64,000 bases of DNA from Phaeobacter sp. CECT 5382 (GTDB lineage: Bacteria; Pseudomonadota; Alphaproteobacteria; Rhodobacterales; Rhodobacteraceae): positions 186,001-250,000 of the forward strand of contig NZ_CYSG01000001.1 of the NCBI RefSeq assembly GCF_001457775.1, given 5' to 3'. This document shows positions 1 to 43,136 of this stretch, piece after piece. Made by a program: the position numbers and the translations under genes. The notes beneath the pieces were generated by a model that ran no database searches, was not told where the DNA came from, and saw only the letters and a program-made list of their open reading frames with translations. Each line of letters starts with the position of its first letter. Within the stretch, counting starts at the first letter, position 1.

Positions 1-187
1 CGGGCGAGACGGCGCAGATGAGACTGTGCACGCATCTGCTGACGGCACTCTCACAGCGCCAGGACAATCGGCAACTCAAGGGCACAAATCCAGCCAGAAG
101 ATTGCCCGTTCCGGGGCGACGGAAATCAGGCAAAGGATGGGGAAGCTGCCAAGGACAGAGTTTTTGCAGAAAAGAGCAGATTTTCTC

Positions 188-216
188 TAGACGCCCCCAT
201 TTACCCCCGCTATATC
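188..216 (+). promoter_or_regulatory. Candidate promoter of tRNA-Asn
   Basis: A -35-like TAGACG at 188-193 and a -10-like TATATC at 211-216 are separated by 17 bases and end 11 bases before the tRNA. The spacing is ideal and the hexamers match the sigma70 consensus moderately. Upstream bases 1-187 show no gene I can support; they may be the tail of a neighbouring region. Confidence 0.45.
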
Positions 217-227
217 GCTGACACCGT

Positions 228-302
228 TCCGGCGTAGCTCAGCGGTAGAGCAGTTGACTGTTAATCAATTGGTCGTAGGTTCGATCCCTACCGCCGGAGC
301 CA
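228..302 (+). tRNA. tRNA-Asn(GTT), CCA encoded
   Basis: The acceptor arms TCCGGCG (228-234) and CGCCGGA (292-298) pair perfectly, followed by a G discriminator and an encoded CCA. The anticodon stem TTGA/TCAA closes a loop CTGTTAA with anticodon GTT, and a normal T-arm with GGTTCGATCC is present. It sits at one edge of a region of mobile-element debris, the usual position of an integration target. Confidence 0.97.
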
Positions 303-480
303 ACACCACCTCTAAGGTGTTCGAATTAAGCAACAAAGCGTTCCATCTTGGGGCGGTTTTGTTGTTCTGGGCACATTCTCTGACACATCCGATGACACAA
401 ACTAAGTAGCCCCACTGTAAGCGTTGCTACTGTCCCCCTCTTTGATGCCTAAACGGCAACAACTCTGAGTGATATTTAGT

Positions 481-501
481 CTCCTGACAATTAGCAGGAG
501 G
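481..501 (+). promoter_or_regulatory. Hairpin covering the ribosome binding site of the IS orfA remnant
   Basis: CTCCTG (481-486) can pair with CAGGAG (495-500) across an 8-base loop. The AGGAGG ribosome binding site of the orfA fragment at 507 lies in the 3' arm, so folding would hide it. Such sequestration is known to limit transposase translation from read-through transcripts in several IS elements; that role here is inferred. Confidence 0.4.
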
Positions 502-506
502 TCAAT

Positions 507-665
507 ATGTCGGCACATGAGGTTTGGGGCTTCACAGTTCGCAAGTCAGCTTCTGGAAAGAATATCTGGCCCAACCAGTTAAAGCGGGAGGCCTGTCGGC
601 GCATCCGAGAAGACGGGGCAGTTGCGGGAAACATCGCAGCGGAGCTTGGAGCGTCTTCGAGGTAG
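507..665 (+). pseudogene. IS3-type transposase orfA, N-terminal fragment
   Basis: A 52-codon frame opens at ATG 507 after a strong AGGAGG and ends at TAG 663-665. Residues around 21-50 (WPNQLKREACRRI, then IAAELGAS) look like the beginning of the helix-turn-helix of an IS3-family OrfA. Such proteins are normally about 90-130 residues, and this one stops in the middle of the HTH. The rest is absent, and the sequence turns directly into the opposite-strand GGDEF-EAL gene. I read it as a truncated, inactive remnant. The family call is from motif resemblance only; another small HTH transposase family is possible. Confidence 0.6.
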
Positions 666-677
666 CGTCTCAGTCAT

Positions 678-2486
678 TTAGCTGAGTTTGCGCATCTGCC
701 CCTTTTCCCAGAGCTCCAGCCAAGAGCGTAAATCTATCATTGCCATGGGACGTGAGAAGTAAAACCCTTGGAAAAATCGACAGCCATTCGCTTCCAATAG
801 GTCGAGTTCCCTTCGCGTCTCCACTCCTTCGGCCATGACGTCCACCCCCATCTGCCTTGCCATAGCGAGCATTGCGCCTGTGATACGTTGCATCTTTTTA
901 TTGCTGTCTAGACCTGTGACGAATGAACGATCAATCTTGAGAGTGGAAATCGGTGCTTCGATCAAAGTAGATATTGCGGCGTGACCAGTCCCAAAGTCAT
1001 CAAGTGCCAAGGTGAAGCCCGCGGCTTTGAGGGATAGACATTGCGCAATCAAGAACTTGTCAGACTGGTCGAACAGGATAGATTCTAGCAGCTCCAGTTG
1101 AATGGACCGAGGGGAAAGGCCAGCCAAGAATAACTCATCTTGCAAATCTTCTAGGAAGTCCGGAGATCGCAGGTTGGATGCCGTAACATTTAGAGAAAGT
1201 TTACCGACCTGAACTCCATCTCTGCGACATGTTGCAAAGGCATTGATGGCCTGTTGGCGCACCTGACGATCAATTTCACGCATCAGATTGGCGCGATTTG
1301 CCGCCTCCAAAAAGCTCGGTGGCGAGAGAACCCCTTTAGCTGGATTGTCCCAACGCGCGAGAACTTCTAACCCGCAAACTTTGCTTGCCTTGGTATCTAT
1401 TTGTGGTTGGAAGTAGGGGACGAACTGGCCCTCTGCGATCCCCTTCTCAATTTCGGAAACCAATGTGGCCCGCTCTTCATGCAAACGGATCATCTCGGGC
1501 GTTAACAATTTGACACCATTGGCAGCACCTTTGGCTTCGTAAAGCGCCATGTCAGAATTGATAAGCAACCGATCTGAACTTAATGCATCGCCAGCGCGGA
1601 AGCGGACGATGCCAATACTGGCACCTACCTTGCAACTGTGGCCGTCAATGCGCACCGGCGTAGTGATATTGGCAATCAGGTTTTCAGCCAAACTGAAAAG
1701 CGAAGTCTTGTCGTGTGGTCCATCCAGAACCAAGGCAAATTCGTCTCCTCCAATCCGGACGGGCAAATCATCAGGACCGGCCCAGGCCTCCATGACTTTA
1801 GCAGTGTGTTTCAGTATTTCGTCACCAGCGGCATGCCCGAAAGTATCGTTGATCGCTTTGAACTTATCGAGGTCAATATGCAGCAGGGCGAGGTCAATAT
1901 CATCTTTAGGACGGTGCAACATACCTTCGAGCTGTTGATAAAGCGACCGTCGGTTCGCGATCCCGGTGAGGGAGTCCAAATTGGCTTCGCGTTCTGCAGC
2001 TTCTTTGGCAGAAGTTAGTGCATCAGTCATCTTTTGGCTGTCATCAAGAAGCGCACGTTGAGTTTCAAATGTGTAAAATAAGTCAATCGAAAAGTCGTTC
2101 GGTTTGAAGTCAGCGCCTGAGAGGTTAAAGCGCTTGATGGCATCTGCAAGGCTTGTCCCAAAGGAGAGGTCGAGAAGGAGGCCTCCAGGGCTATTGTGCA
2201 GCTCTGTTGCGACACTCCGGAACTGAATTGGGTCGCCGCCATCCGGTCGCGCTGTCAACACAAGCTTAGTTCCGAGCCGTGTCTTCAAGCGTTCGAAGTC
2301 GTTTACACGTCGGGGCTTTTCAACCGAAAAAACCTCAAAGAAGTTCTTCTTTTGGATCTCTTGAGTGAAAATGAGTGAAAGTGTTGGGCCGACTTGTTCA
2401 ATACAGCCTCCGGCTCCAACAGTGAGAAACATCGGGCAAAGTATATCGATCATACTTTTCGAAAACTCAAATGTGTAGAGTGCCAT
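678..2486 (-). CDS. HNOBA-GGDEF-EAL c-di-GMP enzyme, partner of H-NOX
   Basis: 602 residues, no membrane segment. Residues 1-145 resemble the H-NOX-associated (HNOBA) domain found in the middle of animal soluble guanylate cyclase. A helical linker (145-170) leads to a GGDEF domain with an intact GGDEF at 246-250 and no obvious RxxD inhibitory site. An EAL domain follows with an EVL variant signature (374-376), N433, E465/E468, DDFGTG (496-501), K517 and E553. Both domains therefore keep their key residues and may make and degrade cyclic di-GMP. The gene starts 33 bases after the H-NOX stop, so the two are almost surely co-transcribed. In known H-NOX operons the haem protein controls the cyclase or phosphodiesterase according to NO; the direction of control here cannot be read from sequence. 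Confidence 0.9.
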   Translation of the reverse strand: MALYTFEFSKSMIDILCPMFLTVGAGGCIEQVGPTLSLIFTQEIQKKNFFEVFSVEKPRRVNDFERLKTRLGTKLVLTARPDGGDPIQFRSVATELHNSPGGLLLDLSFGTSLADAIKRFNLSGADFKPNDFSIDLFYTFETQRALLDDSQKMTDALTSAKEAAEREANLDSLTGIANRRSLYQQLEGMLHRPKDDIDLALLHIDLDKFKAINDTFGHAAGDEILKHTAKVMEAWAGPDDLPVRIGGDEFALVLDGPHDKTSLFSLAENLIANITTPVRIDGHSCKVGASIGIVRFRAGDALSSDRLLINSDMALYEAKGAANGVKLLTPEMIRLHEERATLVSEIEKGIAEGQFVPYFQPQIDTKASKVCGLEVLARWDNPAKGVLSPPSFLEAANRANLMREIDRQVRQQAINAFATCRRDGVQVGKLSLNVTASNLRSPDFLEDLQDELFLAGLSPRSIQLELLESILFDQSDKFLIAQCLSLKAAGFTLALDDFGTGHAAISTLIEAPISTLKIDRSFVTGLDSNKKMQRITGAMLAMARQMGVDVMAEGVETRRELDLLEANGCRFFQGFYFSRPMAMIDLRSWLELWEKGQMRKLS

Positions 2487-2519
2487 ACTTTGACCTAAGA
2501 CTGGGGGCTGTGACGCAAG

Positions 2520-3068
2520 TCAGTCAAGCAGAGTGACTTCAAACACGTCATGGTCTGAGGTAGGGGATTTTGGGGTGATATACGTAACCTCAATCTTCTC
2601 GCCGCTCTTTGCAGCGAGACCGTATAGCAGGCCAACCACCATTGGAACGAGGCCGGCGCGGTCAGAGTAGTAGAAGAGGTGGTATGATTTCTCCCCGACT
2701 TGTTCGAGTTCAAACGACGGAGGTTTGAGATGTGGCATGGCCAGTAGAATTCGTTCATGCATATCGTCGAGCCCATTGACTCGCTCAACAAAAGTGTTCC
2801 CGGCTAGACGAAGAAGATTGCCGAAATTTGAGTCAGAAACAAATTCAATCCAGTACTCGCCAAAGACTTTCAGAACCTCCTCAGCCTGCAGTTCAGTATG
2901 TTCGCAAATCGCCCCAACAAGGTCATAAGTGACTGAATCGTCATAACTTGACATGCGCTCAAATTCAGCACGCTCGAGACCTGCCTTCTTGCAGATAGCA
3001 GTCCAAGTTTCGGGCCCATGATTCTTTTCGATGAAGGAACGGATACCCTCATTGACCATTCCGTACAT
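2520..3068 (-). CDS. H-NOX haem nitric oxide/oxygen-binding sensor
   Basis: 182 residues, the usual size of a stand-alone bacterial H-NOX. The start MYGMVN matches the canonical family N-terminus (often MYGLVN or similar), which supports this ATG. His104 in the stretch DDMHERI is the expected proximal haem ligand, and Y133-x-S135-x-R137 is the haem-propionate clamp that defines the family. The PHLKPPSF stretch after the ligand is also typical. It is the first gene of a two-gene unit with the HNOBA-GGDEF-EAL protein. Facultative aerobes use such H-NOX proteins mainly as NO sensors controlling biofilm or quorum-type outputs. A distal-pocket tyrosine that would suggest O2 binding cannot be judged without alignment. 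Confidence 0.93.
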   Translation of the reverse strand: MYGMVNEGIRSFIEKNHGPETWTAICKKAGLERAEFERMSSYDDSVTYDLVGAICEHTELQAEEVLKVFGEYWIEFVSDSNFGNLLRLAGNTFVERVNGLDDMHERILLAMPHLKPPSFELEQVGEKSYHLFYYSDRAGLVPMVVGLLYGLAAKSGEKIEVTYITPKSPTSDHDVFEVTLLD

Positions 3069-3217
3069 GCCCTAGCCCTTTCAAAATGTTGCAGTGGGAG
3101 GCTACTGACAAACTATTGCTGCATTCCTAACTTTCTCCGTAAGTCGGGCTAAATTGGGAGCTATATGAGGCAGGAGTACTTCTTTCACGTTGCCTTACCC
3201 GACTAAGGGCGCTGAAG

Positions 3218-3547
3218 ATGGCGATAGCATTCCGATCACCGCCCAAGGGCTGCATCCATCATACCGACCGTGGCAGCCATTATTGTTCGCACGATTATCA
3301 AAAGATCTTGCGCCAGCATGGCATCAAGGCATCGATGAGTGGCAAAGGGATTTGCTATGATAATGCGGCAGTGGAAACCTTCTTCAAAACCATCAAAGCC
3401 GAATTGATCTGGCGGGGCACCTGGGACACCCGCAGACAGGCTGAGATCGCCATCTTCGAATACATCAACGGCTTCTACAATCCACGACGACGCCACTCAG
3501 CACTCGGCTGGAAAAGCCCTGTCGCCTTCGAACAGAAGATGGCTTAA
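3218..3547 (+). pseudogene. IS3-family transposase orfB, C-terminal fragment
   Basis: 109 codons encode the last part of an rve/DDE integrase core. HHTDRGSHY carries the second catalytic Asp, and YDNAAVETFFKTIKAEL carries the final Glu region, followed by the family tail with NPRRRHSALG. The matching frame begins near 3200 (RALKMAIA) and everything upstream, including the first catalytic Asp, is missing, so the transposase is dead. The orientation is the same as the orfA fragment at 507. If both come from one element, the H-NOX module lies inside it. Confidence 0.88.
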
Positions 3548-3850
3548 ACGAGCACTGCGGCGCTAAGCGACTACGTGGTGGAATACGCGGGTGGTCAGGT
3601 AAAGAACATCCGCAAGGGATTTGAAGCTGCCTGTTCGCGGGCCAAGCTTGAAGACGTGACCCTTCACACCATCCGCCATTCTAGCGCTGTAGCCATGATC
3701 TCAAACGGAGTTCCATTAGATAAGGTTGCTCAATACCTAGGCCATTCCAATGTGGCCATCACATACCAAACTTATGCAAGGTTTGCTCCTGATCACCTTC
3801 AAGACGCAGCAGAAATTCTAGATTTCACTCAGATCCGAAAAGCCCGCTAA
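3548..3850 (+). pseudogene. Tyrosine recombinase (integrase), C-terminal fragment
   Basis: The frame continues in phase just after the orfB stop and encodes the catalytic tail of a phage-type integrase: HTIRH (HxxR box), LGHSN (GH motif) and a C-terminal QTYARF carrying the nucleophilic Tyr. The N-terminal core-binding half and the first catalytic Arg are absent, so it is a remnant even though a GTG at 3575 could start a 91-residue peptide. It lies between two tRNA genes, supporting an old integrative element here. Confidence 0.85.
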
Positions 3851-3935
3851 AATCTCCTTAGGTTCAAGGAACCCATGAACACTTTGTAAAACAGACCACC
3901 TCCCTGAGGGGAAATATATTTTTCAAGAGGTTGGA

Positions 3936-4010
3936 TGGTGGGTGATAAGAGATTTGAACTCCTGACATCTTCGATGTGAACGAAGCGCTCTACCACTGAG
4001 CTAATCACCC
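3936..4010 (-). tRNA. tRNA-Val(CAC), CCA encoded
   Basis: On the minus strand GGGTGAT (4010-4004) pairs with ATCACCC (3946-3940), then an A discriminator and an encoded CCA. The anticodon stem CTTCG/CGAAG closes a loop TTCACAT, giving anticodon CAC. The T-stem has one G-U pair. It closes the right side of the mobile-element debris. Confidence 0.95.
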
Positions 4011-4029
4011 TTGAGGCCGGGTACTACCC

Positions 4030-4638
4030 TCAGCCCGCAGCCTCTGCAAGGGGCGAGTGCAAAGAAAGCGAGCCCTCAGCTTCAGATTTTTCTTCAGCCT
4101 CCTCCCCATTCTGACTGGCCTCCAGAGGCTGGCGCAGGCGGCAGATGTGAATGGTACCATTGCTGCGCGTTTCACTGCGGTTGATCCGCAACTTACCAAA
4201 GGGCCGGAGATTAAGATCGCGCCCCTCTGCCACAGCCTCTCCCAGGACCGCCAGCAGAGCTTCGACAACCGGTTTCGCATCCTTTTTCTTGATCCCCGAC
4301 CGCAACACCGCTTCGTCAATCAGCTCTTTCTTGGTCAGAGCCAAGGTCTGGTTTTCAACCTCTGTTGTGGCCACGACCATCGGGCTGGGATTCTGCCCTG
4401 CCGCAAGCGCAACAGGTGGGGTTACATTCTTGACTGAAGATACTGACATGTTTTGCCCTTGTGCTGCCTGTACGGGTTTTTCCGTTTTGGGAACGCTCAC
4501 ATTTTTCACAGCGGCCCGAGACGCTGTACCTTTCTTGGTCTCACCTGCAGCAGTGGATGCAGCAGGGGAAGACTTTGGTTTGCGAGTTGTTACCTTGCGG
4601 GGAGCGGCCCTGCGGCTGCCCGGTTTACTGCTTGCCAT
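4030..4638 (-). CDS. HU-family DNA-binding protein with long Lys/Pro/Ala-rich N-terminal tail
   Basis: 202 residues from the ATG at 4638; a start four codons earlier is possible. Residues 1-95 are low-complexity and rich in Ser, Ala, Lys, Thr and Pro, like histone H1-type tails. Residues about 100-175 match the HU/IHF fold (LTKKELIDEAVLRSGIKKKDA, then NLRPFGKLRINR). A short acidic tail ends the protein. Bacterial HU is normally about 90 residues, so the tail more than doubles it. A CtrA-type box lies about 85 bases upstream, suggesting cell-cycle-linked expression. The role is presumably nucleoid binding; the specific function is unknown. Confidence 0.8.
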   Translation of the reverse strand: MASSKPGSRRAAPRKVTTRKPKSSPAASTAAGETKKGTASRAAVKNVSVPKTEKPVQAAQGQNMSVSSVKNVTPPVALAAGQNPSPMVVATTEVENQTLALTKKELIDEAVLRSGIKKKDAKPVVEALLAVLGEAVAEGRDLNLRPFGKLRINRSETRSNGTIHICRLRQPLEASQNGEEAEEKSEAEGSLSLHSPLAEAAG

Positions 4639-4719
4639 GATGCGCCTCATTTTTTGATTATTGCTGATCCATCATGGGCATCAGGCTATGCTCAGACCCC
4701 AGAAAAAGCCACCGCTAAA

Positions 4720-6615: not shown

Positions 6616-9030
6616 TCAATGTGCTGGCGTTCCAGATCCGCGACCCTGTGCTTCGAGCGCAGCCTTGGCAGCTGCCGCCTCTTCTTCGGCGGCCTCATCC
6701 CATTCGATGGCTTCGGGCTGCCGGACCAGAGCAAGCTCCAGCACCTGCGACACATGGCTGACCGGAATGATTTCCAGACCTTCTTTTACGTTGTCCGGAA
6801 TTTCCGGCAGGTCCTTGGCGTTTTCTTCCGGGATCAGCACGGTTTTGATACCACCGCGCAGGGCGGCCAGCAGTTTTTCCTTCAGACCACCAATCGCCAG
6901 CGCGTTGCCACGCAGAGTGACTTCGCCGGTCATCGCGATGTCCTTACGAACCGGAATCTGCGTCAGCACCGACACAATGGAGGTCACCATGGCCAGACCC
7001 GCTGAGGGGCCATCCTTTGGAGTGGCGCCTTCGGGGACGTGAACGTGGATATCCCACTTGTCGAACTTCGGAGGCTTCACACCGATCTTGGGCGAGATTG
7101 AGCGCACATAAGATGATGCAGCCTCAATCGACTCTTTCATCACATCGCCCAGCTTACCGGTGGTCTTCATTCGACCCTTGCCCGGCAGGCGCAGCGCCTC
7201 GATCGACAGCAGTTCACCGCCGACAGATGTGTAGGCCAGCCCGGTGACAACACCGATCTGATCTTCCTTTTCGGCCAGACCATAGCGGTATTTCGCAACG
7301 CCCAGGAACTCATCCAGATTGTCCGAAGTGACAGAGACGCTTTCCACCTCTTTCTTGACGATCTTGGTCAGGGCCTTACGCGCCACTTTCGCGATTTCAC
7401 GCTCCAGATTCCGCACGCCAGCCTCGCGGGTATAGACCCGGATGATGTCGTTCAGCGCGTCATCGCTCAGCGAGAATTCCTTGGCTTTCAAGCCATGGTT
7501 TTTCACCTGCTTGGAAATCAGGTGCTGCTTGGCGATTTCGCGTTTCTCGTCCTCGGTGTAGCCTGACAGAGGGATGATCTCCATCCGATCCAGCAGTGGC
7601 CCAGGCATGTTGTAGCTGTTCGAGGTGGTCAGGAACATCACGTTGGAGAGATCATATTCGACCTCCATATAGTGATCCACAAAGGTGGAGTTCTGTTCCG
7701 GATCAAGCACTTCGAGCATCGCCGATGCAGGGTCACCACGGAAATCCTGGCCCATCTTGTCGATCTCGTCGAGCAGGATCAGCGGATTGGTGGTCTTGGC
7801 CTTTTTCAGCGCCTGGATGATTTTGCCGGGCATCGAGCCGATATAAGTCCGGCGATGACCGCGGATCTCGCTCTCGTCGCGCACGCCACCCAGAGAAATC
7901 CGAATGAATTCGCGTCCCGTAGCTTTGGCCACGGATTTGCCAAGCGAGGTTTTACCCACACCGGGAGGGCCCACGAGACACAGGATCGGGTCTTTGAGCT
8001 TGGCCGAGCGCTGCTGCACCGCAAGGTACTCAACAATGCGTTCTTTGACCTTTTCCAGACCATAGTGATCGGCGTCGAGAATTTCCTCGGCACGGCCCAG
8101 GTCTTTCTTGACGCGCGATTTCACGCCCCACGGAATGGCCAGCATCCAGTCGAGATAGTTGCGCACCACTGTGGCCTCAGCCGACATGGGCGACATGTTC
8201 TTGAGCTTCTTCAGCTCTGCATCGACCTTTTCACGGGCTTCTTTCGACAGCTTGATGGCGGCGATCTTTTCTTCCAGCTCGGCGATTTCGCCGGCGCCTT
8301 CTTCGCCGTCACCCAGCTCCTTCTGAATGGCCTTCATCTGCTCATTCAGATAGTATTCGCGCTGGGTTTTCTCCATCTGGGTCTTGACACGGGTCTTGAT
8401 CTTTTTCTCGACCTGCAGCACCGACATCTCGCCCTGCATCAGGCCATAGACCTTTTCAAGGCGTTCGCTGACCGACAGCGTTTCCAGCAGTTCCTGCTTG
8501 CGGTCGACCTCGATGCCGAGATGGCCTGCAACCAGATCCGCCAGCTTGGCAGGCTCGGTGGTTTCACCGACGGCTGTCAGCGCCTCTTCGGGGATATTCT
8601 TGCGCACCTTGGCGTAGCGTTCGAATTCATCACCGACGGTACGCACCAGCGCTTCGATAGTGGTCACATCACCGGGGATCTCGGTAAGATATTCGGCACG
8701 CGCTTCAAAATAGTTTTCGTTTTCAAGGAACTCAGTGATTTCGACCCGTGCGTGGCCTTCGACCAGAACCTTGACGGTCCCATCGGGCAATTTCAGCAGC
8801 TGCAGCACATTGGCCAGCACGCCGGCCTGATAGATACCATCGGTTTGGGGCTCATCCTCGGCAGGATCAATCTGGCTGGACAACAGGATCTGCTTGTCAT
8901 CAGCCATCACCTCTTCGAGGGCGCGCACAGATTTTTCCCGACCCACAAACAGCGGCACGATCATATGTGGAAAGACCACGATGTCGCGCAGCGGCAGTAC
9001 GGGATAGGAAGAATTAAGCGGCTCTTTCAT
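6616..9030 (-). CDS. lon: ATP-dependent Lon protease
   Basis: 804 residues from ATG 9030, preferred over an upstream TTG because AAAGGA precedes it at the right distance. The LON substrate-binding domain occupies about residues 8-205 (YPVLPLRDIVVFPHM). A coiled region follows, then an AAA+ domain with Walker A GPPGVGKTS (354-362) and Walker B LILLDEIDKM. The C-terminal protease domain carries the catalytic Ser in PKDGPSAG and the Lys in GGLKEKLLAA. It degrades misfolded and regulatory proteins such as cell-cycle factors in the cytosol. It is a single-gene unit. No convincing heat-shock promoter was found by eye. Confidence 0.97.
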   Translation of the reverse strand: MKEPLNSSYPVLPLRDIVVFPHMIVPLFVGREKSVRALEEVMADDKQILLSSQIDPAEDEPQTDGIYQAGVLANVLQLLKLPDGTVKVLVEGHARVEITEFLENENYFEARAEYLTEIPGDVTTIEALVRTVGDEFERYAKVRKNIPEEALTAVGETTEPAKLADLVAGHLGIEVDRKQELLETLSVSERLEKVYGLMQGEMSVLQVEKKIKTRVKTQMEKTQREYYLNEQMKAIQKELGDGEEGAGEIAELEEKIAAIKLSKEAREKVDAELKKLKNMSPMSAEATVVRNYLDWMLAIPWGVKSRVKKDLGRAEEILDADHYGLEKVKERIVEYLAVQQRSAKLKDPILCLVGPPGVGKTSLGKSVAKATGREFIRISLGGVRDESEIRGHRRTYIGSMPGKIIQALKKAKTTNPLILLDEIDKMGQDFRGDPASAMLEVLDPEQNSTFVDHYMEVEYDLSNVMFLTTSNSYNMPGPLLDRMEIIPLSGYTEDEKREIAKQHLISKQVKNHGLKAKEFSLSDDALNDIIRVYTREAGVRNLEREIAKVARKALTKIVKKEVESVSVTSDNLDEFLGVAKYRYGLAEKEDQIGVVTGLAYTSVGGELLSIEALRLPGKGRMKTTGKLGDVMKESIEAASSYVRSISPKIGVKPPKFDKWDIHVHVPEGATPKDGPSAGLAMVTSIVSVLTQIPVRKDIAMTGEVTLRGNALAIGGLKEKLLAALRGGIKTVLIPEENAKDLPEIPDNVKEGLEIIPVSHVSQVLELALVRQPEAIEWDEAAEEEAAAAKAALEAQGRGSGTPAH

Positions 9031-9348
9031 ACTCGGTCCTTTACTTGGCAAGAAAGCCTGATCCCAACACTTGGCAACCCTCGGCTCTCTCCTCTTTGGA
9101 AGTCTTTTATCTGGTATGGCGGTTAATATTTTTCAACCACCCTGCCTCAAGCGTGGCAGCAGTGTGCCTTTAGCACCGAAGGATCACAAGGGTGCAATTG
9201 CAGCCAAGGTGAGCAAAGCGCTAACGCCCAAAAAAAAGGCTTGTCACCCCCGGAAGTCCACCCGGTGGTCATGCCCGCAGTTCACACTAAGACAAGGCCA
9301 GAATATGGGGCCGCAGTGTGGCGCAGGCAGGACAGATGGGCAACACTA
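9031..9348. other. Intergenic region between tgt and lon
   Basis: 318 bases without a supportable gene. It should contain the lon promoter on the minus strand, but no clear sigma70 or RpoH pair stood out, and no good terminator hairpin for tgt was seen. Confidence 0.5.
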
Positions 9349-33265: not shown

Positions 33266-34054
33266 TCAGCCAGCAGCTGCGACCGCACGTTTGGTCAACA
33301 CAGAAATCAAATGCGCACGATAAGCTTTGGTGCCGTGCAGGTCGGCCATCATACCATCTGGTGAAAGTGACAAGCCTTCAAGTGCGTCGGCGTTGAAATT
33401 GGCACTCAGCGCGGCTTCGGCCTCGCTCCAGCGGAAAACTCCGTCTTCTGACGCGCCCGTTACAGCAACCCGAACGCCATCGGGATATTTGGCGACAAAC
33501 ACCCCGACAAGCGCAAAGCGCGAGGCTGGCTGCACGAATTTCTGATAATTCGCTACTTCCGGCACTGGAAAACGCACCTGGGTGACGATTTCACCTTCTT
33601 CCAGAGCCGTGGTGAACAGCCCGTCGAAATAGTCGTCCGCTGCAATTTCACGTGCATTGGTGACAATGGTGGCTCCACTGGCCAGCGCCGCTGCCGGATA
33701 GCAGGCAGCCGGGTCGTTGTTGGCCAGTGACCCGCCGATGGTGCCTCGATTGCGTACAGCCGGATCACCAATATTGCCCGCCAGCGCTGCCAGCGCCGGA
33801 TAGGATGCGGCAGTACCTGCTGCGACCGTTGCATGGGCTGTGCCACCGCCGATCGACAGAACGCCTGCATCCGCGCTCATCCCCTGCATCTCGGCAATGC
33901 CGCTCAGCGAGACAAGCTTTGACGGGCTCGCCAGACGTTGTTTCAGCGTCGGGATCAGGGTTTGTCCGCCGCCCAGCGCCTGGGCTTCCTCTTCGCCCAG
34001 GGCTGCCACCGCATCCGCGACACTGGTGGGTTGTTCGACCTCGAAATTATACAT
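33266..34054 (-). CDS. coxM: CO dehydrogenase-type FAD subunit (medium), CoxM
   Basis: 262 residues from ATG 34054 (MYNFEVEQPTSV), with AAGGA upstream. The FAD-binding motifs of the family are present: LGGGQTLIPTLKQRL (pyrophosphate loop) and RNRGTIGGSLANNDPA. The C-terminal CO dehydrogenase flavoprotein domain follows. It passes electrons from the 2Fe-2S subunit to an acceptor. It is the last gene of a coxS-coxL-coxM order, the arrangement seen for form II enzymes. Confidence 0.93.
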   Translation of the reverse strand: MYNFEVEQPTSVADAVAALGEEEAQALGGGQTLIPTLKQRLASPSKLVSLSGIAEMQGMSADAGVLSIGGGTAHATVAAGTAASYPALAALAGNIGDPAVRNRGTIGGSLANNDPAACYPAAALASGATIVTNAREIAADDYFDGLFTTALEEGEIVTQVRFPVPEVANYQKFVQPASRFALVGVFVAKYPDGVRVAVTGASEDGVFRWSEAEAALSANFNADALEGLSLSPDGMMADLHGTKAYRAHLISVLTKRAVAAAG

Positions 34055-34149
34055 TTCGCTTTTCCTTCCCAAAGACCTGCGCACTGTCTGGCGTCAGATC
34101 TTTTGATAGAGTTGAGCAAAGCACCGGGGGGCTGTACCCCCGGCCCTTA

Positions 34150-36513
34150 TCATTCATTCATCGCAGTCCAAACCCGCGCAGGGCTCAGCGGCATATCCAC
34201 ATGGGTGATGTCCTTGCCCATCGATTGCAGCGCATCGACCACCGCATTGACCACCGCTGGGGGGGATCCGATGGCACCGGCTTCACCACAGCCCTTTACG
34301 CCCAGTGGGTTGTGCGTACAGGGCGTCTGGCAGGAATGGTCCACCTGATAGAACGGCAGATCATCGGCGCGCGGCATGGCGTAATCCATATAAGAGGCCG
34401 ACAGGAGCTGCCCGTCCTCGTTATAGATTGCCGCCTCAAGCAGCGCTTGACCAATGCCCTGACCAATGCCGCCATGCACCTGACCGTCAACGATCATCGG
34501 ATTGACGATATTGCCAAAATCATCGGCGGCCGCAAAACGTTCGATGCTGACCTTGCCGGTCTCCGGATCCAACTCCACCTCGCAGGCATAGGCGCCTGAC
34601 GGGTAGGTGAAGTTCGCAGGGTCATAGAAAGCGGTCTCTTCCAAGCCCGGCTCAATATCCTCGAGCGGGTAGTTGTGCGGCACATATGCCGCGAGGGTCA
34701 CATCGCCCCAGGCCACGGATTTATCTGTGCCTGCAACGCTAAAGGCACCATCCTTCAGTTCAATGTCGGCCTCAGCAGCCTCCATCAGATGGGCGGCGAT
34801 CTTTTTCGCCTTGGCGATGATCTTTTCAGTCGCACGCACCATAGCAGAGCCGCCAACAGCCAGCGAACGGGATCCGTAAGTGCCCATGCCCATTGGCGTA
34901 TTGGCAGTATCACCATGTACGATCTCAACCATGCTTTCATCAATGCCGATCATATCCGCGATGACCTGCGGAAATGACGTCTCATGCCCCTGCCCATGAC
35001 TGTGCGACCCGGTCATAACCACCAGTCCGCCGGTTGCATTGACCCGCACGGTGGCGCTTTCGTAGAGACCCGCACGCGCGCCCAGCTGCCCCACGAGGTT
35101 ACTGGGAGCAATGCCGCAGGCCTCGATATAGCAGTTCACACCCAGCCCACGCCCCTTGCCTTTGGCCTCGCTGGCAGCGCGACGTGCGGCAAAGCCCTTG
35201 AGATCCGCGATCTCCTCCAGCTTATCCATCGTGGCGTTATAATCACCGGTGTCATATTCCACCGCCACGGGCGTGGCATAGGGGAATTCGGTGATAAAGT
35301 TCTGCCGCCGCAACGCGATCGGGTCAACGCCCAGCTCTCGCGCGGCTTTGTCAACAACGCGCTCCAGCTGATAGGTGGCCTCGGGGCGGCCGGCACCACG
35401 ATAGGCATCCACCGGCACGGTATTGGTAAAGACCGCCTTGACGTTCACATAGATCAGCGGCGTTTTGTAATTCCCCGCCATCAATGTGCCATGCAGCCAG
35501 GTCGGAACCGAAGGCGCAAAGGTCGAAAGATACGCCCCCATATTGGCATAGGTATCGGTGCGCAGCGCGGTAAAGTTATTGTCCGCATCCAGCGCCAGCT
35601 GAATCGTCGAGACATGGTCACGACCATGAGCATCGGTGATAAAGGCCTCAGACCGGCTCGAGGTCCATTTGACCGCCCGGTTCAGGGCCTTGGCTGCGAA
35701 GGTACAAAAGGCCTCTTCAGCGTAGTGGAAGATCTTGGTGCCAAAACCGCCGCCCACATCGGGGGCAATCACGCGCAGCTTGTGCTCGGGAATACCCAGC
35801 ACGAAGGCCCCCATCAGAAGCCGGATCACATGCGGGTTCTGCGAAGTGGTATAAAGCGTGCTGTCGCCAGTGGAGCGATTGAAATCGCCAACGGCCACGC
35901 GGGGCTCCATCGGATTGGCGATGAGGCGGTTGTTGACCAGCTCCAGCGTCGTCACATGTGCCGCATTGGCAAAGGCTTCTTCAACCGCGGGTTTGTTTTC
36001 TTCAACAAAACCCCAGTCATAGCAGAGGTTCGAGGTCAAATCATCGTGGACCTTGGTGGCGCCTTCTTTGACGGCCTCTTTCATGTTGATGACCGCTGGC
36101 AGCTCTTCTATGTCCAGCTCGATCGCCTCGGCCGCGTCACGCGCCTGATCAGCCGTTTCTGCCACGACGGCGGCGATGGCGTCGCCGACATAGCGCACCT
36201 TGCCTTGGGCCAGCACCGGGTGCGCAGGTTCCTGCATCACTTCGCCATGTTTATCGGTAATCTGCCAGCCGCAAGGGATGCCGCCGACACCCTCAAAATC
36301 GTCGCCGGTGAAAATCCGCACCACGCCGGGCATCGCCGAAGCGGCCGTTGTATCAATGGATGTGATGCGCCCATGGGCCACGTCAGAGCGCAGGAAGTGC
36401 ACATAGGCCTGACCGCGCAGGTTGATATCATCGGTGTAGTTGCCGTTTCCCGTCAGGAACCGCTGGTCTTCGCGCCGTTTCGGACTGGCGCCGATACCAC
36501 TATCTTTTGGCAT
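34150..36513 (-). CDS. coxL: Form II CO dehydrogenase-type molybdenum subunit, CoxL
   Basis: 787 residues, full length. The active-site loop reads AYRGAGR (370-376), the form II signature; form I enzymes that certainly oxidise CO have AYxCSFR with a Cu-binding Cys. Moco-binding stretches include PDVGGGFGTK, GSHSHGQGHETSFPQ and the catalytic Glu in GCGEAGAIG. The cofactor is molybdopterin cytosine dinucleotide in this family. Form II proteins are widespread in roseobacters, and their ability to oxidise CO is doubtful, so another hydroxylation substrate is possible. Confidence 0.94.
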   Translation of the reverse strand: MPKDSGIGASPKRREDQRFLTGNGNYTDDINLRGQAYVHFLRSDVAHGRITSIDTTAASAMPGVVRIFTGDDFEGVGGIPCGWQITDKHGEVMQEPAHPVLAQGKVRYVGDAIAAVVAETADQARDAAEAIELDIEELPAVINMKEAVKEGATKVHDDLTSNLCYDWGFVEENKPAVEEAFANAAHVTTLELVNNRLIANPMEPRVAVGDFNRSTGDSTLYTTSQNPHVIRLLMGAFVLGIPEHKLRVIAPDVGGGFGTKIFHYAEEAFCTFAAKALNRAVKWTSSRSEAFITDAHGRDHVSTIQLALDADNNFTALRTDTYANMGAYLSTFAPSVPTWLHGTLMAGNYKTPLIYVNVKAVFTNTVPVDAYRGAGRPEATYQLERVVDKAARELGVDPIALRRQNFITEFPYATPVAVEYDTGDYNATMDKLEEIADLKGFAARRAASEAKGKGRGLGVNCYIEACGIAPSNLVGQLGARAGLYESATVRVNATGGLVVMTGSHSHGQGHETSFPQVIADMIGIDESMVEIVHGDTANTPMGMGTYGSRSLAVGGSAMVRATEKIIAKAKKIAAHLMEAAEADIELKDGAFSVAGTDKSVAWGDVTLAAYVPHNYPLEDIEPGLEETAFYDPANFTYPSGAYACEVELDPETGKVSIERFAAADDFGNIVNPMIVDGQVHGGIGQGIGQALLEAAIYNEDGQLLSASYMDYAMPRADDLPFYQVDHSCQTPCTHNPLGVKGCGEAGAIGSPPAVVNAVVDALQSMGKDITHVDMPLSPARVWTAMNE

Positions 36514-36621
36514 ATTTCAAATCTCCTCCCTGGAGGGTGCCACCCTTGGGCGCACCTCTTGGTTATGCAGTTTGATCATTGCCGGGGCCGCACCTCCCTA
36601 TGGCGGCCCAGGAGGGGCTTG

Positions 36622-37107
36622 TCACTCGGCCGCGATGGCAGAGACGTCCTGGCCGGACGCGGCCATGATTGCCTTGACGATATTATGATAGCCGGTGCAG
36701 CGGCACAGGTTGCCTTCGAGATACTCCCGGATCTCCTGTTCGCTTGGCTTGGGGTTGTCTTTCAGCAAAGCTGTCGCTGACATCACCATGCCTGGCGTGC
36801 AAAAACCGCACTGCAATCCGTGATGGTCCTGAAACGCCTGCTGCACTGTGTTCAACGTGCCATCTGCAGCCGCCTGGCCTTCGATGGTTGCCACTTCGGC
36901 CCCCTCGGCCTCGATGGCCAGCATGGTGCAGGATTTGACAGCGACACCGTTCACATGCACGACGCAGGCACCACATTGACTGGTGTCACATCCGACATGG
37001 GTGCCTGTGAGTTCCAGCTCTTCGCGCAGAAACGACGACAGCAGTGTGCGGCCTTCCGCCTCTCCGCTGGCGGGTTTGCCGTTCACGGTCATTGAGACCT
37101 TGGTCAT
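36622..37107 (-). CDS. coxS: 2Fe-2S small subunit of the CO dehydrogenase-type enzyme, CoxS
   Basis: 161 residues. Two 2Fe-2S clusters are readable: a plant-type cluster in [16 protein letters not shown] with a later Cys in KSCTML, and the second in QCGFCTPGM and [10 protein letters not shown]. It relays electrons from the Mo site to FAD. It is the first of the three structural genes on the minus strand, with about 200 bases of leader after the molybdopterin-binding gene. Confidence 0.96.
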
Positions 37108-37319
37108 GAATTCCTCCCATTTGCTACTTTTGTTGGCTGCGGGAAGTTAAGCACGGGATTGCGCCCTCGCGAACCCCTCAAGACGTTCCGTCACGAAACA
37201 ATTTTAACGCTTGGCAGTTTCCTGCCCGAAACCCAACCTCCGTGAGACATTTTGACGAAGCCGCCACCGGCTCGGCGTCCTTCCATCCCCAAACTGTCCA
37301 TTTCCTAAGCGCACTGCTG

Positions 37320-38315
37320 CTAGGCTTTTGCGCGCGGCATCGGCCGTGTAGGAATCTCCTTGAGCAAACCGCCAACGCCCATCGCGGAAATATCGGCACC
37401 TGTCACAGGCTCCGCACAGAGCACCCGTTCCAACACCCAGTCTGCCCCGTTCAGCGCCGGAGAGCGCGCACAGCCCGGCAGCCCGATCACAGGCTTTTCC
37501 CCAAAATCGCCCAGAAACAGAAGGTTGCCCGGATCAACCGGCATGCCAAACCGGGTCACTGTTCCACCAGCCTGACGCAGGGCCGAAGGCGCCACATCTG
37601 CCGGATCAGAGGTTGCGGATCCTGTCAGGATCAACAGGACTTCGCCGGGGGCCTTTGTCAGGGCATCGGCCAGATCTGCCTCGCGATGCGGCACGATAAC
37701 GCGCGGACTGAGATCCAGCCCCATTCGCTGCAGCCGCCCCCCCATGGCGCGCCGACCTTTGTCAGGCGGTGTTTCATCGGTCACTTTGGTCTCGATCAGG
37801 GTCGCTGACTTATAAACTGGTGGTTGCACCCAGATGGACCCACTGGCACCGGCCCCCGCCTGCCACAGCGCCGTTTCCGGCACCCCGTAAGAAATGATCT
37901 TGATGGTTGCCAGCATACCGTCCCTGTCAACGCGGTGATAGTCGGGCACCGTGGCGATGGTGATCATCGGGTCCGCTGCGTTGACCGCATTCAGCGCATG
38001 TGGATCCAGCCGGACAATGCCACAACTGCGCGCATAGAGGTTCACCCGCCCGGCCCCGGCGCCTGAAATGCGGATATTCTGCCCTGCCTCATCACTCACC
38101 AGCGCCTGCGCCAAAGCAAGTGCTGCCGCGTCTTCGTGTTGATCATTGGCCTCCAGCCTGGCCACTGTGACCGCCTCAAATCCGGCCTGCGCAAGCGCAG
38201 TAAGATCTGCCGCTGTCAGATAGCTGCCCTTGGGGATTTTTCCTGTGCTTGCACGCAGGGAATGCGCCAGGATCGCGCCTTCGGCCTCGGCCAGAGGTAC
38301 CGTACCAAAAATCAT
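37320..38315 (-). CDS. Molybdopterin-binding (MoCF-like) accessory protein
   Basis: 331 residues. The C-terminal half carries the molybdopterin-binding fold, with LLILTGSATSDPADVAP in place of the MoeA/MogA TGGxSxGxxD-type motif, and GKPVIGLPGCARSP near the end. The N-terminal half resembles the beginning of MoeA (PLAEAEGAILAHSL). It overlaps the xdhC/coxI gene by four bases (ATGA), so the two are coupled. It probably helps build or insert the molybdenum cofactor into the cox enzyme. Confidence 0.82.
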   Translation of the reverse strand: MIFGTVPLAEAEGAILAHSLRASTGKIPKGSYLTAADLTALAQAGFEAVTVARLEANDQHEDAAALALAQALVSDEAGQNIRISGAGAGRVNLYARSCGIVRLDPHALNAVNAADPMITIATVPDYHRVDRDGMLATIKIISYGVPETALWQAGAGASGSIWVQPPVYKSATLIETKVTDETPPDKGRRAMGGRLQRMGLDLSPRVIVPHREADLADALTKAPGEVLLILTGSATSDPADVAPSALRQAGGTVTRFGMPVDPGNLLFLGDFGEKPVIGLPGCARSPALNGADWVLERVLCAEPVTGADISAMGVGGLLKEIPTRPMPRAKA

Positions 38316-39325
38316 GCAACGCCCTTTCGCAACACGGTCGTCATCTCTGCCAGGATCGCCACGGCAATTTCAGCCGGGCCTGCCGCACCGATGTCCAGCC
38401 CGACAGGACCATGGATACGGGCGACTTCAGCCGCACTGAACCCTGCGGCCTGCAGGCGTTCCACCCGCTTGGCATGAGTACGTTTGGACCCCAGCGCGCC
38501 GATGTAGAAACAGGCCTCATCCTGAGCAGCCGCAAGCGCCGCCTCAAGTGCTGGATCATCCAGTTTGGGATCATGAGTCAGCAGGACCAGCGCCGTGCGG
38601 GCATCCAACCCCAAAGCGGCGACGGCCTCGTCTGGCCAGTCATCTAAAAGGGTCACGCCGGGGAACCGCTCCGCAGAGGCAAAGGCGCTGCGCGGGTCGA
38701 TCACAACCGGATCGTACCCGGCTATCTGCGCCATCGGCACCAGTGCCTGGGCTATATGCACGGCCCCCACCACCACCAGCCTCAATGGCGGATTGTGCAC
38801 CGCCACGAAGGTTTCGCCATCCTCTTCGACACCAGAACGATCCAGACGCAGCCGGTCGCTATATCCATCCCGTACCAGTCGCCCCACACCGGTGTTCAGG
38901 TTAACCTCATAGGCAAGGGCCAGACGTGAATCCTGTGCCGCCACCAATTCTTCGAGCAGATCTGCCGGAAGCGTGCCACCAATAGGCTCCACCAAAATAC
39001 GAATAGTACCACCGCAGGCGAGCCCCACCGCAAAGGCGTCCCCGTCGCTGACCCCAAACTCCAGCACCCGATGTTTGCCATCGCGCAGTGCATCCTGCGC
39101 TTCAAAGATCACCGCCCCTTCGACGCAGCCGCCAGAAACGGAGCCTTCGATACGACCATCGCCACTGACCACCAGTTGTGATCCCACCCGGCGCGGTGCC
39201 GATCCCCAGGTCTGAACGACGGTGGCCAATGCCGCACCCTGGCCTGCCCTATGCCAGCGCAGGGCCGTTTTGGCCGCGCTGTCCAACAGTTCCGCCGTAT
39301 CGGCGGGGTGAGCATCCTGGGTCAT
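38312..39325 (-). CDS. XdhC/CoxI family Moco-sulfuration chaperone
   Basis: 337 residues from ATG 39325, with GAGGAAAC upstream. The N-terminal XdhC_CoxI domain has the motif ATVVQTWGSAPRRVGSQLVV followed by GSVSGGCVEG, with the conserved Cys in GCVEG and a second in LACGGTIRI. The C-terminal Rossmann domain contains LRLVVVGAVHIAQALVPMAQ and ends with the IHGPVGLDIGA motif. XdhC binds Moco, promotes its sulfuration and delivers it to xanthine dehydrogenase-family enzymes, here presumably CoxL. The neighbouring sulfur permease genes are notable in this light. Confidence 0.92.
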   Translation of the reverse strand: MTQDAHPADTAELLDSAAKTALRWHRAGQGAALATVVQTWGSAPRRVGSQLVVSGDGRIEGSVSGGCVEGAVIFEAQDALRDGKHRVLEFGVSDGDAFAVGLACGGTIRILVEPIGGTLPADLLEELVAAQDSRLALAYEVNLNTGVGRLVRDGYSDRLRLDRSGVEEDGETFVAVHNPPLRLVVVGAVHIAQALVPMAQIAGYDPVVIDPRSAFASAERFPGVTLLDDWPDEAVAALGLDARTALVLLTHDPKLDDPALEAALAAAQDEACFYIGALGSKRTHAKRVERLQAAGFSAAEVARIHGPVGLDIGAAGPAEIAVAILAEMTTVLRKGVA

Positions 39326-39493
39326 GTTTCCTCCGGCAGGGTCATAGGCAGGGTCATAGCGCCCCTTTTGACCCAAGCTTGCCCGTTGCAGCTCCGGTTT
39401 CAAGGCGCAAAACCGTGAGGACAAAAAAACTTAACGGCACCCGCCCTTCCAGGTGGATGCCGTCTGCGGGAATTTCAGTCCGATTTTTATACG

Positions 39494-40084
39494 TTATTCT
39501 GCTGGTTGCGCCTTCGACTTTGCGGTCATGATCCGCTCAGGCAAGGCAAAGGCCACGGCGATGAAAACCGCGCCCAAAAGCAGACCAAGGATATCCCCGG
39601 GAAAGGCCGTGAGCCCGTCATATTTCGCACCAGGGACCGTTCCCAATGTAACCTTGCCCCCGGCAAACCCATCCAGCAACCCGCTGTTTTTCCAGGCAGG
39701 GTAGGTCATCATATAAGCCGCAGCGCCCAGCAGGCCGCCAGCAATAAAGAACAGCGCATCCTTGCGACCAGAGGCAGCTGCAACCACCCCGGTACCGGGA
39801 CAATAGCCCGCAAGTGCCCAGCCAGCCCCCAGCATCAGCCCGCCAATAAAGACCCCGGCATAGGCCGATTTCACCGACATATGGCCCACATCTACCAGCC
39901 CCAGCATCTGCCCGCCAAACATCAGCACCGACCCGATACCAATCGCCAGCATGATTGATTTCGCTAGATTGAGGTTGGTCAGATTAAGCATTTTTCCGAT
40001 GAAGTTCGGATTGGAGGCTCCAACCCGGTCTAGTACCGCGCCAAAGGCAAGTCCGATCACAATAGCAAGAACAATCGACATCAT
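39494..40084 (-). CDS. YeeE/YedE-type sulfur permease, second half (DUF6691-like)
   Basis: 196 residues, about five membrane helices. The signature AGYCPGTGVVAAASG matches the Cys motif of the YeeE/YedE (thiosulfate/sulfur uptake) family. Together with the gene ending three bases upstream it makes a two-protein version of the single-chain YeeE, like PmpA/PmpB pairs. It would carry thiosulfate or another reduced sulfur species by Cys relay. It stands in the middle of the cox cluster. Confidence 0.88.
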   Translation of the reverse strand: MMSIVLAIVIGLAFGAVLDRVGASNPNFIGKMLNLTNLNLAKSIMLAIGIGSVLMFGGQMLGLVDVGHMSVKSAYAGVFIGGLMLGAGWALAGYCPGTGVVAAASGRKDALFFIAGGLLGAAAYMMTYPAWKNSGLLDGFAGGKVTLGTVPGAKYDGLTAFPGDILGLLLGAVFIAVAFALPERIMTAKSKAQPAE

Positions 40085-40087
40085 GGC

Positions 40088-40639
40088 TCAGGCCTCCTTT
40101 TTGAACAGCATCAGGGAAACAGGAACGCCAGCTGCAAAGGCCCCGGCGGCAAAGACATAGCCCGAAAGGGAGGTCTGCATCATGCCCGACATCATATGCC
40201 CCGAGGTACAGCCCCCCGCCAGCCGCGCACCATAAAGCACGACAAACCCGCCAAGAAACACCAGTGCGTAGCGTTTGAATGTACTGTCACCAAAATTTGC
40301 CCGCCACAGGGCTGGCATGCTGCGCTCGGCCTGATCCAGACCACCGCGCAGGCGCATCGACAGAAAACCGCCCAGCGCCATGGCCAGCACAAAGACAAAG
40401 CTGTAGTTCAGCGGATTGGCCACGGATTTGGCATATTTTCCGTTTGATTTGGCCAGATAGGCATTCGTCGAGGTATAGCCCTCGTCGGTCTGGGTCACCA
40501 GCTCGCTGTTGACAGCATCGCCGACGATGCCATCCAGAATGACAAATTGTGTCGATACCCCAATCGGTTTCACCAATAATACGGCGAGGAAAAAGACCAG
40601 GCCAAGCAAGAGCCCTCCGGCTTTCCAGTTCAGTGGCAT
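40088..40639 (-). CDS. YeeE/YedE-type sulfur permease, first half
   Basis: 183 residues from ATG 40639 (MPLNWKAGG), chosen because GGAGGG lies just upstream; earlier in-frame ATGs at 40660 and 40651 have no such site. Four to five membrane helices are visible, with the sulfur-relay motif GGCTSGHMMSGMMQ and a periplasmic loop (about residues 40-70). Its gene has its own leader with an FNR-type box, a -10 element and an AT-rich dyad. It may therefore be switched on by low oxygen independently of coxDE. Confidence 0.9.
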   Translation of the reverse strand: MPLNWKAGGLLLGLVFFLAVLLVKPIGVSTQFVILDGIVGDAVNSELVTQTDEGYTSTNAYLAKSNGKYAKSVANPLNYSFVFVLAMALGGFLSMRLRGGLDQAERSMPALWRANFGDSTFKRYALVFLGGFVVLYGARLAGGCTSGHMMSGMMQTSLSGYVFAAGAFAAGVPVSLMLFKKEA

Positions 40640-40654
40640 TATGCCCTCCATCAT

Positions 40655-40674
40655 ATTCATTTTCTAAAATGTAT
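40655..40674. promoter_or_regulatory. AT-rich dyad over the permease promoter
   Basis: ATTCATTTT (40655-40663) and AAAATGTAT (40666-40674) form an 8-of-9 dyad with a 2-base centre. It overlaps the -10 element and probable start point of the permease gene, a place suited to a repressor. An ArsR-type sulfur-responsive repressor such as BigR/SqrR would fit the context but is not shown. Confidence 0.35.
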
Positions 40675-40709
40675 ACTGTTTTGGGGACAACAAAATTGAT
40701 CGAAATCAA
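40670..40709 (-). promoter_or_regulatory. FNR-type promoter of the sulfur permease pair
   Basis: A perfect FNR/Anr/FnrL consensus TTGAT-CGAA-ATCAA lies at 40696-40709, and a -10 TATACA lies at 40675-40670 on the minus strand. A start about seven bases after the -10 puts the box centre near -41, the class II activator position. The box begins directly after the coxE stop codon. Confidence 0.7.
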
Positions 40710-42931: not shown

Positions 42932-43136
42932 CCTACGCCTCCTTTGAAGCCTTGGTTTATTCCGCGTCCAACAGGCCATGGCAGGGCTGCCGGGTCAAGC
43001 GGTGCGCAACTGCCGTTGCGTCTCCCCCCGTTTCCACAAGAAAACGCGATGGCCTCTCTTGAGTGGTGGCAGGCTAGCATTTTCGCCAATGCCCGCTTAT
43101 GAAAAGATCAACACTGGTCGATCTGATGGGTACAAG

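Follow-up and report, generated by a model that had tools for sequence, protein, structure and literature searches.

A two-gene H-NOX/HNOBA-GGDEF-EAL module in Phaeobacter sp. CECT 5382, a candidate nitric oxide switch for cyclic di-GMP turnover

The gene pair and its domains

We describe two adjacent genes in a 64,000-nucleotide stretch of the Phaeobacter sp. CECT 5382 genome (contig NZ_CYSG01000001.1, positions 186,001 to 250,000; the whole stretch is called the window, and positions below refer to it), which encode an H-NOX protein and, on the same minus strand and starting 33 bases downstream of the H-NOX stop codon, a partner made of an HNOBA-type PAS domain, a helix, a GGDEF domain and an EAL domain (Table 1). 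Sequence comparisons and the predicted fold of the partner support reading these genes as a split module resembling soluble guanylate cyclase (sGC). The coordinates, strand and spacing given in the initial annotation of this DNA were all reproduced on the sequence, and its further statements, i.e., a proximal His104 and a YxSxR motif in the H-NOX, a helical linker after the N-terminal domain of the partner, and GGDEF and EAL domains with intact catalytic residues, agree with what follows.

The H-NOX matches the Pfam HNOB profile (PF07700) nearly end to end (E value 6.5e-43, profile positions 1-162 of 163), and its best match in the PDB is Nostoc Alr2278 (5.8e-49, residues 1-179), followed by sGC beta-1 (3e-28 to 2.3e-23). 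Met143, at a position that we take to be on the distal side of the haem, aligns with a methionine of Alr2278, and there is no tyrosine at that place. The usual cysteine-ligated zinc site of H-NOX proteins is of a C-terminal kind; the window protein holds only two cysteines, both within its N-terminal third, and therefore lacks such a site. With His104, YxSxR and a sequence resembling Alr2278 throughout, the protein is predicted to be a haem-competent H-NOX that would bind haem and nitric oxide (NO). H-NOX proteins vary in their ligand, and carbon monoxide (CO), oxygen (O2) or the redox state could be what is mainly sensed instead; we consider this unlikely given the lack of a distal tyrosine, the residue that as a rule goes with O2 binding in H-NOX proteins, and of the usual zinc site, even though a precedent exists in Cc H-NOX, which works by cysteine oxidation (PMC12329717).

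The N-terminal domain of the partner is more divergent. The initial annotation had likened its first 145 or so residues to HNOBA, a claim borne out by the family profile and the predicted fold but not by the single sequence, which scored 16.8 bits (E = 0.0052) against Pfam HNOBA (PF07701), under the curated cut-off of 23.4. Alignment A1 holds 50 partner proteins of the host family, and 46 of them reached an E value of 0.01 or lower against PF07701 (best, 4.9e-9). Built from 26 N-termini, that of the window protein included, profile A2 aligned with the N-termini of four HNOBA kinases (hhalign; 99.7%, E = 2.1e-26, 153 columns) and, in the PDB, with sGC beta-1 (2e-5; profile positions 13-156 on residues 212-369), the H-NOXA domain of Nostoc punctiforme (2p04; 6e-5), sGC alpha-1 (0.0022) and, as a weak match, human beta-1 (0.018). 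An AlphaFold2 model of residues 1-160 (predicted local distance difference test score, pLDDT, 90.7; predicted template modelling score, pTM, 0.78) returned sGC chains, 2p04/2p08 and 4gj4 as its top 22 Foldseek matches, other PAS domains coming next; 2p04 superposed on it at 2.2 Å over 111 columns. Because the protein falls below the Pfam cut-off when taken alone, yet is matched by the family profile and by fold, we describe the domain, with support from sequence and model, as a divergent HNOBA-type branch rather than as a Pfam-called HNOBA.

In the full-length model (pLDDT 92.3, pTM 0.70), a single unbroken helix (residues 132-169) joins the PAS domain to the GGDEF domain. The EAL domain has E374 (EVLARW), N433 (LNV), E465/E468 (ELLE), DDFGTG at 496, K517, EGVE at 553 and Q573, which we take to be its catalytic residues. 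The partner thus seems equipped for both synthesis and breakdown of cyclic di-GMP. A less probable, though serious, alternative is that it works in one direction only, that is, as an NO-controlled phosphodiesterase whose GGDEF domain is a guanosine triphosphate (GTP)-binding regulator, or as a cyclase with an inactive EAL domain. Many GGDEF-EAL tandems are indeed one-sided, and the usual family partner has GGDEF only (48 of the 50 proteins of alignment A1 had no EAL match). However, all motifs read in both domains of the window protein are intact, and both EAL-bearing relatives (see below) retain GGDEF. Further, Gly237 replaces an arginine found in at least 90% of the alignment A1 proteins, nine residues before GGDEF, which is presumably the arginine of the I-site (product inhibition); its loss would make sense in an enzyme able to degrade the product as well.

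Table 1. Features of the window that bear on the gene pair and its setting.
Feature	Position	Strand	Details and evidence
H-NOX (HNOB) gene	2520..3068	-	182 amino acids (aa), ATG start; Pfam HNOB and PDB Alr2278 matches
Codon of proximal haem ligand His104	2757..2759	-	Sequence; aligned to His of Alr2278
YxSxR motif (YYSDR, residues 133-137)	2658..2672	-	Sequence
HNOBA-GGDEF-EAL partner gene	678..2486	-	602 aa, ATG start; Pfam and AlphaFold2 model
HNOBA-type PAS domain, residues 1-131	2094..2486	-	Family profile, AlphaFold2, Foldseek; single-sequence Pfam below cut-off
Continuous linker helix, residues 132-169, coiled-coil/signalling-helix position	1980..2093	-	AlphaFold2 model, pLDDT 73-93 in these blocks
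GGDEF domain, residues 168-321	1524..1985	-	Pfam 4.6e-38; GGDEF motif intact at 246
EAL domain, residues 345-580	747..1454	-	Pfam 9e-66; motifs present
tRNA-Asn, one side of pair	228..302	+	
tRNA-Val, other side of pair	3936..4010	-	
IS3-family transposase, C-terminal part	3218..3547	+	109 aa; NF033516 profile positions 266-369, 7.9e-41, below its cut-off
Tyrosine recombinase, C-terminal part	3575..3850	+	91 aa; Pfam Phage_integrase 6.3e-14, profile positions 108-169

Distribution, haem ligand and genomic setting

When the full-length partner was searched against genome contigs, 80 loci were kept with matches starting at residue 100 or later, mostly GGDEF-EAL, and we therefore used its N-terminal 159 residues and the H-NOX as queries instead. 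The former matched 211 of 295 host-family genomes and the latter 211 of 290 (E <= 0.001), with most listed matches at 25-40% identity. An HNOBA-type frame was present in the same short locus for 68 of 72 different H-NOX (the window's own partner left uncounted), a sample that consists mostly of best matches to the window protein, and thus leans its way, and that includes one 66-aa fragment. By these sequence matches, the split H-NOX/HNOBA-partner layout is common in the host family and not a new kind. What is unusual is a haem-competent H-NOX together with an EAL-bearing partner, found in three of the genomes sampled. Within the host genus (12 genomes, 86-100% complete), all 12 had an H-NOX match and only the present genome had the window type. 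Partner-like frames of at least 600 residues occurred, among the matches listed, only in the present genome and in genome G294, and an EAL domain hidden in other long family frames was not apparent (the motif DDFG was in none of the 17 listed matches of 479-577 residues). The closest relatives of the window H-NOX are those of G294 (62% identity) and G711 (65%), both from one other genus, of which 3 of 40 sampled genomes gave any match; each is followed by a 616-aa HNOBA-GGDEF-EAL partner, with 4 bases of overlap between the partner start and the H-NOX stop, and both pairs lie in the same gene neighbourhood. More broadly, 10 of 385 genomes of the class sample matched at 1e-12, 99 of 398 genomes of the phylum sample had HNOB at 1e-10 (neighbours examined in 29 loci, L166-L194), and a plasmid search gave seven records with H-NOX 25-29% identical.

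The present genome also carries a pair of the ordinary family kind (L002), with overlapping genes, a 336-aa HNOBA-GGDEF partner, and an H-NOX that has Pro104 and lacks YxSxR. While the sGC-like split order proposed by the initial annotation holds, what is unusual about the pair had been missed, i.e., a kept haem ligand combined with EAL, in a genome that also has an ordinary pair without the histidine. Of the 72 H-NOX, 14 have His and 47 have Pro at position 104, and 8 have YxSxR; among the 70 that are 170 aa or longer, 7 combine His104 with YxSxR (the window, L085, L157, L158, L159, L115 and L160), and also in L164, outside this count. The HNOBA neighbour of the haem-competent H-NOX is a kinase in L157, L158, L159 and L115. 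In L160/L182 (genome G657), the H-NOX adjoins an HNOBA protein for which Pfam gives a weak match to a receiver domain but none to a kinase or to GGDEF, which suggests another output type for HNOBA. Six ordinary H-NOX (L121, L125, L135, L137, L143 and L097) still have His104, without YxSxR, so that loss of the histidine is incomplete in the ordinary lineage. Separately, an 87-aa frame elsewhere in this genome (L003, G000:C22, 1414-1677, minus strand) resembles the first third of HNOB (profile positions 1-56 of 163; 22.2 bits, below cut-off) and directly precedes a histidine-kinase-like frame; it may be a third, incomplete input of the H-NOX type.

In a midpoint-rooted tree of 44 H-NOX selected from those collected (support given as ultrafast bootstrap/Shimodaira-Hasegawa-like approximate likelihood ratio test), the 32 with an HNOBA-type neighbour split from the 12 without one in short flanks (100/100). 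The three EAL-type H-NOX formed one group (100/97), sister to 23 ordinary family H-NOX (99/95) and apart from the kinase-linked H-NOX, with the caveats that branching among the latter is weakly supported and that a long branch (1.69) leads to the ordinary group. The simplest reading of these sequences is that a kinase-linked, haem-binding H-NOX became cyclase-linked once, the EAL type keeping the haem site and the ordinary type mostly losing it. A GGDEF tree (53 rows, 52 different) groups the EAL-type and ordinary partners with three general GGDEF-EAL proteins (95/92), which is compatible with either gain or loss of EAL.

As for the origin of the pair, its GC content at third codon positions (GC3) is 51-53%, whereas the ordinary pair has 61% and the gene at 6616-9051 has 69%. 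This genome probably acquired the pair, given the lower GC3, the failure to find it in the 11 other genus genomes, its place between two tRNA genes, and the adjoining partial genes for an integrase and an IS3 transposase. No integration scar in the form of attachment repeats was found, in that no word of at least 12 bases is common to either tRNA gene and 303-4200 or 303-3935 (both strands), and no direct repeats of at least 14 bases occur in 1-4200; seven congener stretches examined (one of them only 1.8 kb) showed no simple empty site. In one congener (L217), the same outer flanks enclose different genes, and insertion plus rearrangement at the site is therefore likely (L217 2865-9376 corresponds to window -120 to 3921, with, by reading, an aconitase among the genes inside). 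The tRNA-Val neighbourhood may be a hot spot of rearrangement or insertion in the host genus. The pair might also be a decaying passenger in a mobile-element remnant, with no present role; its presence in one of 12 genus genomes, the partial mobile genes, the flanking tRNA genes and the lower GC content (50.1% for 678-3850 vs. 58.0% for 4001-64000) would all suit this. It seems improbable to us, however, since both frames are full length, the motifs read are intact, and pairs with an H-NOX of 62-65% identity occur in two other genomes, where they have neighbouring genes in common.

Other observations concern the surroundings. A 206-aa HU-like protein (4030-4650; Pfam Bac_DNA_binding, 1.1e-8) with a long, low-complexity N-terminal tail adjoins tRNA-Val, and similar frames stand at that place in both congeners whose frames were read. 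Control by an FNR/NnrR-type regulator was considered and set aside: the sole exact TTGA-N5-TCAA of the first 4100 bases is inside the H-NOX gene (2776-2788), not upstream. Farther away, a molybdenum hydroxylase cluster (33269-42979) includes a large subunit with AYRGAGR (34153-36513), an XdhC-type maturation protein and a MadB-type ATPase; its profile matches point to CO or aldehyde dehydrogenase types, all below NCBIfam cut-offs.

A proposed nitric oxide switch

We favor the hypothesis that the two proteins are an NO switch controlling cyclic di-GMP turnover, probably acquired, and we regard it as likely overall. That is, the haem-bound H-NOX would dock on the HNOBA-type PAS domain of the partner; NO binding would break the bond between iron and His104 and shift the helix that carries the histidine; and this shift would travel through the PAS dimer of the partner and then the helix of residues 132-169, altering the balance of synthesis by GGDEF and breakdown by EAL. 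If it behaves like the direct H-NOX/GGDEF systems in the literature, NO would favor breakdown and probably lower cyclic di-GMP. The analysis establishes the genes, their domains and homology, the predicted fold, the residues and the distribution; from these we infer haem binding, NO as the ligand, docking, dimerization, both activities, the direction and any physiological effect, attachment or motility being a conceivable output.

Some structural guidance comes from cryo-electron microscopy of sGC, in which Asp106 and Asp102 of the beta subunit exchange contacts with Arg258 of the PAS domain on activation, and the coiled coil straightens (PMC8196705). Lys57 of the partner corresponds to Arg258 via equal, gap-free ranges for human beta-1. 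Asp101 and Glu105 of the H-NOX presumably correspond to Asp102 and Asp106, provided that His105 of beta-1 is the haem ligand. All 70 H-NOX have an acidic residue at position 101, and 57 of the 70 have one at position 105; at position 57, all 26 partners have Arg or Lys. Even the H-NOX without the histidine keep these acids (57 of 57 and 49 of 57, respectively). The conserved charges fit a docking face in common with sGC, here on separate chains, but are no proof of one. The pairing is itself conserved, with the same gene order in the two closest relatives (G294 and G711). Consistent with the proposed direction, NO-bound H-NOX lowers cyclase activity in Legionella, Dinoroseobacter and Shewanella woodyi (PMC8846402) and stimulates phosphodiesterase activity in S. 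woodyi (PMC5588039).

Several points weigh against this switch. Residues 101 and 57 are so conserved that the fold, not the contact, may keep them. The genome contains ten EAL places, nine of them above cut-off including that of the window, and the effect on the whole cyclic di-GMP pool may be small because the eight others also exceed the cut-off. Searches of the genome for nitrite reductases of the NirS type (cytochrome cd1, PF02239) and the NirK type (copper enzyme, TIGR02376), the only NO sources looked for, gave no match, although they found PF02239 in 2 and TIGR02376 in 7 of 14 control genomes; there is therefore no apparent denitrification source of NO in the cell, and NO may come from outside or be formed otherwise. 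The protein called Cc H-NOX is presumably that of Caulobacter; its NO-bound form leaves the kinase uninhibited, and cysteine oxidation at the zinc site is what switches it (PMC12329717). In Paracoccus, cyclic di-GMP was below detection, and the proposed H-NOX effect was unconfirmed by measurement (PMC12582929).

A further idea, which we consider very unlikely, is that the PAS domains and helices of the window and L002 partners pair as a heterodimer, a bacterial counterpart of sGC alpha/beta, in which haem is carried only by the H-NOX of the beta subunit (PMC8196705). Each pair can exist alone, since the ordinary pair is present without the window pair in 11 other genus genomes, and no second pair was seen in G294 or G711. 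If the idea were true, the frequent H-NOX of the family that lack the histidine would, more broadly, have evolved into a regulatory subunit without haem, retaining the docking face of a haem-binding ancestor.

Relation to known systems and significance

The window pair has a parallel in animal sGC beta-1, which has the same order of H-NOX, HNOBA PAS domain, long helix and nucleotide-cyclising output. sGC is, however, one chain per subunit in an alpha/beta heterodimer and ends in a class III cyclase that makes cyclic GMP, whereas the window system is two chains, cut after the H-NOX, with GGDEF and EAL only; being two genes with no single chain that ends in a class III cyclase, it is not an sGC. 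The comparison with sGC drawn in the initial annotation (same order, split in two, cyclic di-GMP as output) is upheld in this sense by the profile match (2e-5) and the fold. The HNOBA histidine kinase systems (2p04 of Nostoc punctiforme; L157, L158, L159 and L115) likewise combine a haem-competent H-NOX bearing YxSxR with an HNOBA neighbour, but instead of the GGDEF-EAL output seen here they have a histidine kinase (identified by Pfam in L157, L159 and L115 and by frame reading in L158).

Among direct H-NOX/GGDEF systems, SwH-NOX/SwDGC of S. woodyi and Hnox1/Lpg1057 of Legionella are described as having an H-NOX beside a GGDEF-EAL or cyclase partner, in which NO lowers synthesis (PMC8846402). 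In our phylum sample, five GGDEF neighbours of H-NOX (L171, L172, L178, L187 and L190) matched neither an HNOBA profile of our own nor PF07701, and four of them bear GAF or PAS instead; the H-NOX of L171, L172, L187 and L190 (not L178) fall in a separate clade of the H-NOX tree. Closer to the family, adjacent H-NOX/cyclase pairs have been published for Paracoccus denitrificans (hnoX/dgcA) and Dinoroseobacter shibae (H-NOX/Dgc1), with inhibition of the GGDEF partner by the H-NOX proposed in the former and reported in the latter, and with the N-terminus of the Paracoccus partner called a domain of unknown function (PMC5588039, PMC8846402, PMC7232146). The Paracoccus H-NOX lacks the haem histidine (PMC5588039), and the ordinary pair L002 looks similar to hnoX/dgcA, judged by the published description. 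The window pair is outside this GGDEF-only DgcA/Dgc1 type: the published pairs are described as cyclase only, whereas it adds EAL, keeps His104 and YxSxR, and belongs to a sister lineage in the H-NOX tree (99/95). The general idea is in print: one paper states that, within cyclic di-GMP signalling, HNOB and HNOBA may be confined to GGDEF proteins (PMC8846402). Among the papers listed by our literature searches, most subscription papers being out of reach, we found no description of an H-NOX beside an HNOBA-GGDEF-EAL protein.

In conclusion, the window pair belongs to a system that is common in the family, but as a variant it is rare, and its value lies mainly in its kept haem site, with a cousin without the histidine in the same genome. 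In our sample the common family H-NOX mostly have Pro or another residue at the ligand position, which raises the question of what they sense; a haem-competent sister and a ligand-less member in one cell make a direct comparison possible. The pair may also be seen as the sGC relay of sensor, PAS domain, helix and output in compact form, divided over two chains, in which the H-NOX is separable and could be swapped while the enzyme is left untouched.

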